A stretch of 48,135 nt of DNA from the IMG/VR virus record IMGVR_UViG_3300042559_001106, positions 1-48,135 of that record, one strand, 5' to 3'. Below are positions 38,767-42,805 of the stretch, one piece after another. This DNA is from a virus. Made by a program: the position numbers and the translations under genes. Below the pieces are notes generated by a model that worked only from the letters and a program-made list of their open reading frames with translations, ran no database searches and had not been told where the DNA came from. Numbering within the stretch: the stretch's first letter is position 1; each line of letters starts with the position of its first letter.

Positions 38767-38979
38767 TCAGAACATCGGCGTGAGGGGGCGACGGCGACCG
38801 GTGGTGCTGCCGGCCAGTTGCGCCTCAAGCTCCGCGATATACGCGCGCAGCCGGTCAGCGTTCGCGGAGGTGAATTCAATTCGTTCGCCCGAACTGTCCA
38901 CAATCACCCGTGCTGAACGACCCGTCATCAGGTCGTGGTAGGCCTGTTTTGCGGCGCGAAGTTGTTCGGCAAGAGTCAT
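38767..38979 (-). CDS. Head-tail joining protein gpW-like (70 aa)
   Basis: The pattern LRAAKQAYHDLMTGRSARVI, then EFTSANADRLRAYIAELEAQ, is typical of gpW, the small adaptor that plugs the portal after packaging. The start overlaps the HNH stop (ATGA). In lambda gpW lies directly after terL; here an HNH gene separates them. Confidence 0.92.
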   Translation of the reverse strand: MTLAEQLRAAKQAYHDLMTGRSARVIVDSSGERIEFTSANADRLRAYIAELEAQLAGSTTGRRRPLTPMF

Positions 38980-38981
38980 GC
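38967..38981. repeat. 15-bp repeat at the HNH/gpW junction
   Basis: On the minus strand GCATGACTCTTGCCG spans the start of gpW. It matches 13 of 15 bases of the sequence at 39695-39709 (GCATGACCCTCGCCG), where the terL stop meets the HNH start. The pair brackets the HNH gene and each recreates an ATGA junction. Confidence 0.8.
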
Positions 38982-39707
38982 AGGCATCTCGATCTGGTTG
39001 TGCTTACGACGGTTGGTGGAGCGCGGGATGACTTGAAGATTCCAAGGCACATGCAAGCCGCTCACCGTTGCGCCGCGAAGAGGGACGATGTGGTCGACCT
39101 CGTGCGGAACTCCCGTAGTAGCAGAGACCACTTGGGCGTGAGAATACACATCCCGCATCTCTTTGCGATCCCCTCGCGTCAACCAGTGTGGGGCGGCTCG
39201 ATACTTTGCGGCACGCCGGAGATTAGTTTTCTCGTTGCACTTTTCTTTGTTGTTTGCAGCCCAAACAGAGCCTCGTTTTCGTGCAGCCGCTAAATACGAC
39301 GGGTCGTTCTTCAACTTTGAATGGTATTTAGCTTTGTCGTTTTCCCTGCGCTTTGCTTTGTAGTCTTCCGATTTCCTTAGTTTCGATAGCCTTTCCGCTT
39401 TTGATTTACGAAGACTTTCGTTGGCTGCGTAAGCCTTTCGATTTCGCTCCCTTACGTGCTCGGCGTACTCTGGATCGTTTTTCATCCTGTGGGCGTGGCG
39501 CTCAAGTGCGGCCTTGCGATGTTCTTTCAACATCTCCGGGTCTTTTGCGCGGTTCCGATCACGCAGACAGACCTGACACAAACCGGAGTTTGTGATTCGG
39601 ACAGGATTTGCGTGCCCGTTCCTGCACGGCTTGGAATCGGCGTAGTGCTTCGATCCAAAAAGACGCGCTTCCTTTTTGGAGGAAGGAATGTGGGCGGCGA
39701 GGGTCAT
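38976..39707 (-). CDS. Free-standing HNH endonuclease between terL and gpW (243 aa)
   Basis: The C-terminal HNH motif is clear: HEVDHIVPLRGATVSGLHVP (residues ~205-224) and NLQVIPRSTNRRKHN. The N-terminus has a CxNGH / CQVC zinc-knuckle-like part, and the middle is a long Lys/Arg-rich helix (RKSKAERLSKLRKSEDYKAK). The gene appears less GC-rich and more Lys-rich than its neighbours, a sign of transfer. It is coupled by ATGA on both sides and flanked by 15-bp near-identical repeats. It is probably a homing endonuclease. Confidence 0.9.
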   Translation of the reverse strand: MTLAAHIPSSKKEARLFGSKHYADSKPCRNGHANPVRITNSGLCQVCLRDRNRAKDPEMLKEHRKAALERHAHRMKNDPEYAEHVRERNRKAYAANESLRKSKAERLSKLRKSEDYKAKRRENDKAKYHSKLKNDPSYLAAARKRGSVWAANNKEKCNEKTNLRRAAKYRAAPHWLTRGDRKEMRDVYSHAQVVSATTGVPHEVDHIVPLRGATVSGLHVPWNLQVIPRSTNRRKHNQIEMPA

Positions 39708-39709
39708 GC
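39695..39709. repeat. 15-bp repeat at the terL/HNH junction
   Basis: Partner of 38967-38981 (13/15 identical). Both copies encode M-T-L-A at the start of the following protein, so HNH and gpW share an N-terminal tetrapeptide. Confidence 0.8.
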
Positions 39710-42700
39710 GAGCTTCGCGGCCAGATCGGCGAGCTTGTTATAGGAGCCCTTCTTCGGCTCGGCAACAGGCTTGTTTGCGGGGAAGAAGTGCGCGTTCTTT
39801 TCCGGTAGTTCCGCAAACGACGGCGGAGCTTCCCAATTAATTCGGTCTACCTTCTTGTGGCGCAACACGCCGAGTAAATACGTCGCCAAGTCCCACGCTT
39901 CATTTCGGGCCTTACGCGGATTCTCCCAACCTTTGTCGGTTCGCCTCTCGGCGCACATTTCCTCGTACCAGTTGTCGGGCAACCACACCGGCCACTCCAG
40001 TGAGCCGCCGTCGACGGTCGCGCGCTCGATCATGCCCGCGAGGTCGTCTTTCAGGAGGTTGACGTTGAGCAGCATCACCGGCACGTCGCCGCGCGCCGCG
40101 GCGCTGCGATCCTTCTTCTGTGCGTCGGGGAAGCTGATTCGGACGCGCGGGGCGCCGGCGTTGTTGCCTTCGCCTTTCACGAGGAAGAAGCGCGCGTGCT
40201 CGCCAGAGCCTTCGCGACGCAGCTTGCGGAAGAAGTCGTAGGCGTTGGCGGTCACGCCGTCCTTACCGCCGGAGTCGCAGGCGATGAACGCGATGCCGAG
40301 TTCGCCGCTGCCGTCCGCCAGTGGGTAGCGGCGCTCGATGATCTGCTCGCGCACCAAGTCCCAATCTTCGAGGAACGCGCCGGGCTTCACCCACAGCGCG
40401 TCGCCGTCGTCGTCGCGGCGCTTGGACTTCCTGATCTCGAAGCGGTCGATCACGCACGCCTTGAACGGCTCGCCGGCGCTGCCGGGGCCGACACCGAAGA
40501 CCTGAGCGACCCACTGGTTCTTCTGCACGTCCGCCGTCGCCACGAGGAACCGCACGCCGGCCGGGATTTGCTGCTCGGGCAATTCGGATGCGCGCTGCTT
40601 GAGTTCGTCCGGGCTGCGCAGCGACTCGGAGCCGCGCGGGTAGTACGGCTCGCCTTGATCGGTGTTGACCGTGGACTTGAGCGCCTCCTGCGAGCCCGTG
40701 CGCTCGAACTCCTGCTCGGCCAGTAGGTAGCGGCTCACGAGGTCGCTCCACTTCGCGAACGTGGCCGCCGGCCCCTTCATCCAGAAGCTCGCGATGTCGC
40801 TGCGGATCGCCGTGCCTTCGAGCACGTCGTCGCGCGTGAGCTTCTGGCCGTCCCTGATCCATCGGCCGGCGCGGTTCAGCGTGTGCTTCATGCCGGGGTC
40901 GATCAGCGCGGTGCAGTGCGGGCACATCATCTTCGCGCTCTCGGCGCTCTCCATGATGTCCTTCGAGTCCACCCACTTGATGAGGTTGAAGCTCGGCTCG
41001 AACCACTCGCCGCAGTGCGGGCACTTCCAGTACCAGCGGCGACGGTCGCCGCGGTTGTAGAGCGCGAGGATGCCGGGGCAGGGCGGCGCTTCGTGCGGCG
41101 TGCGGCGCAGCCAGCGGGGGTCTTCGACGGTGTGGCCCGGCGACGACTCGGCGATCGTGCAGGCCGCGGTGCCGAAGGTCGTGGTGCGCTTGCGCGCCAA
41201 GTCGAAGGGCGAGCCTTCGCCGTCCACGTCCATCGGCATACGGTCGTAGTCGGTGAGAATGACGCGGCCCACCGGACGGCCTGAGAGTTCGTTGATCGTC
41301 GGCCACGAGAGCGTGAGAATCATCCCCGACAGGTAGAACTTGTCGAACGTGTTGTCGCTGTCGCCGCCGGGCATCATGCGCTTGCCGACTTCCGCCGAGT
41401 GGCGGTGCAGGCGGTCGATTCGGCGGCGCGAGAAGTCGCGCGCCATCGTCTGCGAGGTCTGGTAGACCAGCATGTCCATCGGATCGCACACGACCGAATA
41501 GACGATCGGGTTCACGATGAGCGCGTCAGTGTTGTGCGTCGGCACCATGCTCCGCGTGCAGAGGAACAAATGATCGGCGTTGTCGACTTGGATGCACCGA
41601 ACGGGAACACTGGCGACCGGCTTGACCGAAACGATCATGCGGCGCTCAGTGTAGGTCGGGCGCGACTTGGCTCGATCCCGCTGCCTAGCGCGCTTGCGCG
41701 CTAGGTTGAACACCGGCGTGTCGGAATAGGCAAAGAACGTGATCGTCTTCGCGGGCTTGCCGTCGACCAAAACGCCTTTGTGCCGTGTCTTAGGCGCCTT
41801 GTCGATGGTGCGGTACTTGAACCCGAGAGAAGCCAACAACTCGCAGATACCGTCTGCTAGTTCTGGCGAGGTCGTCGTGAACGAGCAGGCACCGTTCTTC
41901 CCGCAAGTGCCGTCCGTGTCCATCAAGCCGCGGAGCAACTGCAAACGCTGGCCTTGGCTCGCGCGAAGGTAAGTGGCTGGAATGTGCTTCCGGCCACCCG
42001 ATCCTTTGTGCAGCCCGAGATCGCGCAGGCGATCGCAGAATGCGTTGTGCTGGTCTACGAGAAGAACACCGAGGCGCTTCTCGTCCATCTCTACTTCGAC
42101 AAAATGGCCCTCTGCACGAATGTGATTGGCGGTTTCAAGAACATCGTCGAGAGCGCCGTAGATTCGGCACGTCCGCGAGTGCCCGTCTCCGAGCCAACTA
42201 CCCAAGGTGTAGGGGCCAATCGGAAGTGGAGCCGCAGGCAACTCAATCGGCTTTGTGTTCCGAACGGCGAAGGTGGAGCGGTTTGATTTGCCGAAACGAT
42301 GCTTCGGCTCGATCTCGCCGGTGGTCATCACTTTCGACCAACCGTTCTGCGACTCGACCAGCCACTTGTGGTCGCGATCCGCGATCACTTTGGTGCCGTC
42401 ATCGAACTCGACCTCGAAGCAATCGTGGTCGAGCATCACTTCCGTAGCAAAGACGACGCGGCAAGGCTTCCCGTCCGCACCGATGAGTTCGTCACCAACG
42501 CGAACGTCGCCCATGCTTGTCCAGCCGCTCGGCGTCGGGAGCGGCGTATCGAGCGCCAGTGCCTTGCCGCACTGTGCAGGGCCGACGAAGATCACCGAGT
42601 TGAACTTGCGGTTCGTCATCTCGTCGGCCGGCTCGACCATGTACGGCGTCGTGTCGTTGCGCCACGGGCCAACGTAGGAGCCGGGGTTGTTGACGTAGCG

Positions 42701-42805
42701 GTACTTCTCCGCGGCGTCGCTCACCGACAGGCGCTCCGGCGGACGCAGCACTTCCGCCAGTTCGCAGATCATCTCGCCGAGGCCCTTGTAGCTGCGCTCC
42801 ATCAC
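39704..42805 (-). CDS. terL: Terminase large subunit (GpA family) with intein in Walker A (1033 aa precursor, 689 aa spliced)
   Basis: It packages DNA using ATP and cuts genomic concatemers. Walker A reads GPAQCGK at residues 75-81 and resumes with Thr426 after the intein, giving GPAQCGKT. Walker B-like VILTDYD lies at ~515-521. Two CPHC pairs (595-598, 628-631) are typical of GpA, and a nuclease region follows with AFIACDSGGKDG (839-850). The start is GTG at 42805 or ATG at 42802, both overlapping the terS stop. Without splicing the ATPase site would be broken. Confidence 0.95.
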   Translation of the reverse strand: MMERSYKGLGEMICELAEVLRPPERLSVSDAAEKYRYVNNPGSYVGPWRNDTTPYMVEPADEMTNRKFNSVIFVGPAQCGKALALDTPLPTPSGWTSMGDVRVGDELIGADGKPCRVVFATEVMLDHDCFEVEFDDGTKVIADRDHKWLVESQNGWSKVMTTGEIEPKHRFGKSNRSTFAVRNTKPIELPAAPLPIGPYTLGSWLGDGHSRTCRIYGALDDVLETANHIRAEGHFVEVEMDEKRLGVLLVDQHNAFCDRLRDLGLHKGSGGRKHIPATYLRASQGQRLQLLRGLMDTDGTCGKNGACSFTTTSPELADGICELLASLGFKYRTIDKAPKTRHKGVLVDGKPAKTITFFAYSDTPVFNLARKRARQRDRAKSRPTYTERRMIVSVKPVASVPVRCIQVDNADHLFLCTRSMVPTHNTDALIVNPIVYSVVCDPMDMLVYQTSQTMARDFSRRRIDRLHRHSAEVGKRMMPGGDSDNTFDKFYLSGMILTLSWPTINELSGRPVGRVILTDYDRMPMDVDGEGSPFDLARKRTTTFGTAACTIAESSPGHTVEDPRWLRRTPHEAPPCPGILALYNRGDRRRWYWKCPHCGEWFEPSFNLIKWVDSKDIMESAESAKMMCPHCTALIDPGMKHTLNRAGRWIRDGQKLTRDDVLEGTAIRSDIASFWMKGPAATFAKWSDLVSRYLLAEQEFERTGSQEALKSTVNTDQGEPYYPRGSESLRSPDELKQRASELPEQQIPAGVRFLVATADVQKNQWVAQVFGVGPGSAGEPFKACVIDRFEIRKSKRRDDDGDALWVKPGAFLEDWDLVREQIIERRYPLADGSGELGIAFIACDSGGKDGVTANAYDFFRKLRREGSGEHARFFLVKGEGNNAGAPRVRISFPDAQKKDRSAAARGDVPVMLLNVNLLKDDLAGMIERATVDGGSLEWPVWLPDNWYEEMCAERRTDKGWENPRKARNEAWDLATYLLGVLRHKKVDRINWEAPPSFAELPEKNAHFFPANKPVAEPKKGSYNKLADLAAKLA
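39737..39765 (-). promoter_or_regulatory. Candidate promoter inside the terL 3' end (TTGCCG-17-TATAAC)
   Basis: TTGCCG (4/6) and TATAAC at 17-bp spacing, with GGCTCCTATAACA identical over 13 bases to the candidate at 16274. It lies 29 nt before the HNH start and is within the codons for KKGSYNK, so it could be chance or a promoter for the HNH gene. Confidence 0.45.
41531..42562 (-). mobile_element. Ala1 intein with class 3 (W-C-T) signature and LAGLIDADG domain in TerL (344 aa)
   Basis: The element begins Ala82 (ALALDTPLPTPSGW) rather than Cys, and ends PTHN (422-425) followed by Thr426 as +1. Block B has DHKW (145-148) with His146 and Trp148, block F has PVRCIQVD with Cys404, and Thr423 precedes the terminal His-Asn. 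These Trp, Cys and Thr positions form the W-C-T triplet of class 3 inteins, which use the block F Cys in place of residue 1. LGSWLGDGH (201-209) and LLRGLMDTDG (290-299) are LAGLIDADG motifs, so homing activity is likely. Confidence 0.93.

Follow-up and report, generated by a model that had tools for sequence, protein, structure and literature searches.

The window analysed here is the complete IMG/VR virus record IMGVR_UViG_3300042559_001106, a single metagenomic assembly of 48135 bp. Its minus strand carries, in order, genes for a terS-like protein (DUF1441), the large terminase (terL), an HNH protein, the head-tail adaptor gpW, a lambda-family portal and an S49 protease, and the run from the terS-like gene to the S49 protease gene is a lambda-like packaging and head module. 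The features of concern are as follows.

39704..42805, minus strand: terL, large terminase of the GpA/TerL family, intein-bearing (open reading frame; Pfam GpA_ATPase, E = 3.7e-65, and GpA_nuclease, E = 5.2e-60)
39695..39709, minus strand: terL-side 15-mer GCATGACCCTCGCCG, holding the terL stop, the HNH start and HNH codons 1-4 (MTLA); identical to the sole junction of the empty relative L002
38976..39707, minus strand: HNH endonuclease ORF, 243 aa, GC3 58% (phrog_26577, 8.5e-18; phrog_1035, 8.1e-12; alignment; AlphaFold2 model)
39567..39626, minus strand: zinc-finger-like N-terminal Cys/His motif C28..H32..C44..C47, HNH residues 28-47 (alignment)
38994..39107, minus strand: HNH catalytic region, residues 201-238, PHEVDHIVPLRG...SGLHVPWNLQVIP...N (weak PF01844 match at 201-238; invariant columns; modelled secondary structure)
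38967..38981, minus strand: gpW-side 15-mer GCATGACTCTTGCCG, holding the HNH stop and the gpW start (sequence)
38767..38979, minus strand: gpW, head-tail adaptor, 70 aa (PF02831, 1.2e-17; phrog_75, 6.5e-26)
38857..38979, minus strand: diverged tract, the first 123 nt of gpW (comparison with L002; GC3)

The HNH gene and its neighbours

The HNH gene is free-standing: it lies outside any intron or intein, the terL and gpW ORFs are intact on either side of it, and searches for tRNAs and Rfam families over the whole 48135-bp stretch returned no match. Against Pfam its product gives only PF01844 at an E-value of 0.009, which is below the cut-off; of its two PHROG matches, phrog_1035 is annotated 'endonuclease VII'. 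The protein consists of the N-terminal Cys/His motif, a long helical middle and the C-terminal HNH region, and was modelled by AlphaFold2 with a mean pLDDT of 86 and a pTM of 0.50, the latter value rendering the domain arrangement uncertain. Seven residues (V204, D205, H206, G217, L218, N223 and N232) are invariant in an alignment of 22 sequences and the HNH region is modelled as strands 202-206 and 224-228 and a helix at 229-234; the protein thus displays both the conserved His, Asp/His and Asn and the strand, strand, helix arrangement of the HNH superfamily. Foldseek searches against the PDB place FnCas9, ColE7 and Gme HNH among the top matches, but with E >2 and so without significance, while viral HNH structure models match at 3e-9 to 1e-3. 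Its putative function is assigned from family membership and from the anatomy of the locus.

The terL gene itself is interrupted at the Walker A motif (GPAQCGK / T) by a 344-aa intein with a LAGLIDADG domain (41531-42562, minus strand). This intein has Ala as its first residue, a Trp following the block B His, a Cys within block F and a Thr ahead of the His-Asn pair, a pattern which we take to be that of class 3 inteins. It is absent from the relatives L002 and L005 described below. Divergence is raised in the terL codons on either side of it (61-100) and extends to the +1 residue, which is Thr in the window and Ser in L002.

Empty sites and the source of the HNH start

The original prediction held that the HNH gene is bracketed by 15-mers (39709-39695 and 38981-38967) that match at 13 of 15 bases, that each spans an upstream stop and a downstream start through an ATGA overlap (terL/HNH and HNH/gpW), and that the HNH and gpW proteins both begin MTLA. 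All of this is borne out, with both terL and the HNH gene ending in GCATGA and overlapping the next start by ATGA. A repeat of this kind might arise by chance, as ATGA overlaps are frequent in this phage, the overlap alone fixes 4 of the 15 bases and MTLA is an unremarkable start. However, among ATGA-anchored 15-mer pairs on the minus strand only 4 of 8001, this pair being one of them, reach 13/15, and of 579 same-locus pairs of ATGA junctions at gene overlaps it is the only one to do so. Comparison with an empty site provides a stronger test that is independent of the flanking pair: beyond the shared ATGA, the HNH ORF agrees with the gpW start of L002 at 9 of 9 further bases, for which the chance at this GC is, by a rough estimate, about 1e-5. 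This comparison disfavours coincidence, which we regard as highly improbable.

Close relatives came from a scan of viral contigs in which the final 400 TerL residues served as the query. It had been anticipated that relatives lacking the HNH gene would hold one ancestral copy of the junction, and indeed L002 and L005 each contain exactly one GCATGACnCTnGCCG between terL and gpW. In L002 (98% identical in the TerL fragment) the single copy is GCATGACCCTCGCCG, matching the terL-side copy of the window at 15/15, and terL directly joins gpW as AAGCTCGCATGACCCTCGCCGAACAACTCC; in L005 (85%) the single copy is GCATGACTCTCGCCG and the direct join reads AAGCTCGCATGACTCTCGCCGAACAACTCC. L003 and L004 (71%) likewise lack the HNH gene and read TCCTGATGACGCTCAACG, and the more distant L117 and L132 keep GCATGACCCTG in a junction retained as GCATGACCCTGACCGA, with a gpW starting MTLTE. 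In lambda terL meets gpW directly, and in about 134 of 146 surveyed terL-gpW loci the two genes are at most 140 bp apart. Presence of the HNH gene at this site is polymorphic: IMGVR_UViG_3300042559_001106 has it, L002 and L005 do not. Neither 52 HNH loci nor the 146 terL-gpW loci include another phage in which this HNH gene separates terL from gpW. Other insertions in the same gap include unrelated ORFs which from reading the sequence we name HNH/AP2-like (162 aa; L128, 7182-8034), methyltransferase-like (L013, 7188-8596) and phosphoesterase-like (L115, 7188-8485), so insertions reach this spot repeatedly.

These distributions bear on whether the HNH protein might be a terminase-linked packaging accessory and not a homing enzyme, in the manner of HK97 gp74 or the HNH protein of lactococcal Skunaviruses, whose gene separates terL from the portal gene. 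The gene does adjoin terL in a late operon, and such proteins are treated as packaging components in the literature (PMC10448857 on HK97; PMC12724721 on HrdP). Yet the conservation characteristic of an HK97 gp74-type module is lacking: the gene is missing at 98% and 85% TerL identity as well as from L003 and L004, no other surveyed locus has this family at terL-gpW, where the great majority have nothing, and its relatives also precede DNA polymerase and tape-measure genes. Since near-identical relatives do without it, an essential packaging role is unlikely, and we consider the accessory explanation as a whole decidedly improbable.

The likeness between the HNH ORF and the L002 gpW gene covers nucleotides 1-13 of both and ends there. 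Together with the 15/15 match of the terL-side copy, this shows that nucleotides 1-13 of gpW open the HNH ORF, and the gene apparently takes its start signal from a copy of them. It depends on this ATG, because the next in-frame start codon, a TTG at codon 43, falls inside the Cys/His motif; the HNH homologues that we compared have different N-termini. The terL-side copy is the ancestral one, and the duplication amounts in essence to the initial 13 nt of gpW. The 'GC' that precedes ATGA on the gpW side comes from the HNH gene's own last codon; an HNH relative in another phage (L038) also ends ...IPA, with GCATGAC, before an unrelated gene.

The proposal that the insertion had duplicated the terL-gpW junction is thus supported, with refinements: empty relatives do hold a single copy, what was copied is essentially the 13 nt of gpW, and the event was no simple target-site duplication, because the copy on the gpW side stands at the front of 123 nt that are foreign to this phage lineage. 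A transposition-like event, in which a staggered break of about 13-15 bp at the junction was filled in around the HNH insert, would fit the direct repeats bracketing the insert and the single copy in the empty site. It sits poorly with a gpW-side copy that is no duplicate of the recipient sequence and with the GCATGA at the end of the L038 relative, and when start and stop regions were compared at the other HNH loci, no repeat resembling that of terL/HNH/gpW was found; we judge it quite unlikely. From the ATGA overlaps alone, translation of the HNH gene and gpW is probably coupled to that of terL.

The diverged 5' end of gpW

What is new at this locus is the divergent gpW tract, with a GC3 like that of the HNH gene, beside the insert. 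Over its first 123 nt, gpW differs from L002 at 23 positions, against a background of about 5% on both sides (binomial P 1.5e-8 for 23/123 nt against 4.7%); terL is at this background up to the HNH junction. Codons 1-42 contain 20 synonymous and 1 non-synonymous (K21R) differences (dS about 1.7, dN 0.03), and codons 43-57 are identical. Between L002 and L005 the same 42 codons show 7 synonymous and 9 non-synonymous differences. GC3 is 57% in the tract and 58% in the HNH gene, as against 88% in the L002 copy of the tract, 89% in the terL extein and 92% in the portal gene. GC3 also falls to ~0.6 over the last ~80 terL codons (39704 to about 39943, minus strand), versus ~0.9 in the rest of terL, in the window and L002 alike, and may record an older exchange.

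One way to obtain such a tract is recoding in place, the resident gpW having been selected for synonymous substitutions that prevent cutting, or that limit recombination between the repeats. The ratio of 20:1 in 42 codons would suit this, and gpW is the sole gene with such a stretch: no other run of 42 codons with at least 18 synonymous and at most 1 non-synonymous differences was found in the window or L002 when compared with L002, L003, L004 and L005. The window-L002 pair is also the most extreme of 6786 gpW pairs. Nevertheless, the tract shares the GC3 of the HNH gene, 123 nt exceeds the usual length of a recognition site, and ordinary purifying selection yields 15:2 and 18:3 in other gpW pairs; we therefore hold in-place recoding to be unlikely. 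Since the next pairs in that ranking reach 15:2, 18:3 and 16:3, the tract may have been imported from a diverged donor, with purifying selection acting, and composition favours this origin, even though such a donor does not fully explain the near-pure synonymy, which counts against the homing interpretation. A 17-mer search for the donor in viral contigs hit 4 contigs, within chance for the 17-mer alone, and yielded no donor. As a 123-nt divergent flank confined to the gpW side, the tract is consistent with being the footprint of one-sided co-conversion, of the kind expected next to a free-standing homing endonuclease gene.

We accordingly regard it as probable, though well short of certain, that a free-standing HNH homing endonuclease gene invaded the terL-gpW junction, entering gpW just after codon 4 and taking over its start. 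The anatomy, the empty sites, the source of the HNH start, the one-sidedness of the tract and the absence from near-identical relatives can all be read directly, and from this anatomy and the family we infer cleavage, homing and translational coupling. The recipient would have been a phage like L002, with an empty junction, that suffered a DNA break in the 5' part of gpW, presumably made by this enzyme. The right-hand end would have been repaired by homologous recombination from a donor in which the HNH gene precedes a diverged gpW, copying in the HNH gene together with the donor gpW over its first ~123 nt. On the left, end-joining or microhomology may have linked the recipient DNA, directly behind gpW nt 13, to the coding sequence of the HNH gene. 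The initial 13 nt of the former gpW would thereby have become the HNH start, supplying the start codon and the ATGA overlap with terL, with a second gpW start, again ATGA-overlapped, following the HNH gene. A break with homologous repair on the right and joining on the left would account for the exact left border, the right-side tract, the 13-nt duplication and the borrowed start. The replaced, mostly silent gpW 5' end plausibly protects the phage from the enzyme that it encodes, with the gpW genes of empty competitors still open to attack. Against this homing scenario count the lack of a second phage with the gene at terL-gpW and of a donor in our searches, so that movement by this protein is presumed. 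The missing junction duplication in the Jilinvirus cases described below, and the origin of the window in a single metagenomic assembly, weigh against it as well.

The locus offers a precise snapshot of a free-standing endonuclease gene entering a tight operon without breaking it, in which empty site, filled site and foreign tract are all readable. It suggests that such genes may come to be expressed by appropriating the start of the gene that they displace, and it pinpoints gpW codons 5-42 as the predicted cut region. Should the silent tract be what determines immunity, this can be tested directly with the pair of L002-type and window-type gpW genes.

Related HNH genes and comparison with known systems

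Relatives of this HNH gene occur before the tape-measure genes of the Escherichia phages ep3 and Alux-21 and beside terS/terL in FoX3. That of L038 (4686-5315) is flanked by a probable DUF2815-type gene and a DNA polymerase gene; its product terminates in ...LEIPA, closely resembling the ...IEMPA end of the window protein, and its GCATGAC overlaps the polymerase start. The FoX phages, with the gene at terS-terL, gave no usable empty relative among the matches for a second empty/filled pair. A parallel is found in an unrelated phage pair from Jilinvirus, in which ep3 and the empty ECO1230-10 are near-identical upstream of the HNH gene and diverged at the tape-measure 5' end, with 21/50, 8/50 and 5/50 differences and then near 0. 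The asymmetry is qualified by a second divergent block further downstream in the ep3 tape-measure gene and by divergence immediately upstream of the HNH gene in Alux-21. The first 20 tape-measure codons of Alux-21 and ECO1230-10 differ by 12 synonymous and 0 non-synonymous changes. PT1 and Bas97, which lack the HNH gene, carry nearly the same silent allele as Alux-21, likewise 12 synonymous codons of 20 away from ECO1230-10 (L104 and L105, from 1019; compare L103, from 1629, and L102, from 1019). These alleles are what a homing cycle of sensitive-empty, filled and resistant-empty states would leave. The Jilinvirus HNH loci have no junction duplication, so start capture is special to the window.

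It is a tentative, and on balance doubtful, generalization that this HNH family homes to the 5' end of the downstream gene and spreads along with a silently rewritten copy of it, the carrier being immune and competitors being cut, and that here it also captured the start codon of its target. If true, silent rewriting across the family would be a natural counterpart of recoded-rescue gene drive.

The gene belongs to a known kind of mobile gene, and it is the anatomy of the insertion that is unusual. One survey reports that phage nuclease genes are often found close to terminase genes (PMC10448857). In T4, the genes for free-standing endonucleases are placed between conserved genes and several overlap the upstream ORF, mobE by UAAUGA; their homing co-converts flanks, and intronless homing has been described (PMC2988022). 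Capture of a downstream gene's start by a homing endonuclease is not described in any paper that we found, our coverage of the literature being incomplete. Like the T-even seg and mob genes, such as mobE overlapping nrdA, the window gene lies between conserved genes, is present or absent among relatives, overlaps the upstream stop with its start and adjoins a divergent tract consistent with co-conversion (PMC2988022). It departs from them in that its start and first codons derive from a copy of the start of the gene that follows it, in that the tract lies on one side of the insert only, and in that its homing and cleavage are predicted from sequence. The phrog_1035 match recalls F-CphI and the DHHRN endonuclease VII-type homing endonucleases (PMC6083498). 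The published description gives F-CphI the catalytic motif of T4 Endo VII, whereas the window protein has a classic HNH region (HEVDHIVPL...GLHVPWNLQV...N). With HK97 gp74-type packaging HNH genes it shares a position beside the terminase in a late operon; unlike them, it is not conserved in close relatives, sits between terL and gpW, and has its own relatives beside unrelated genes.
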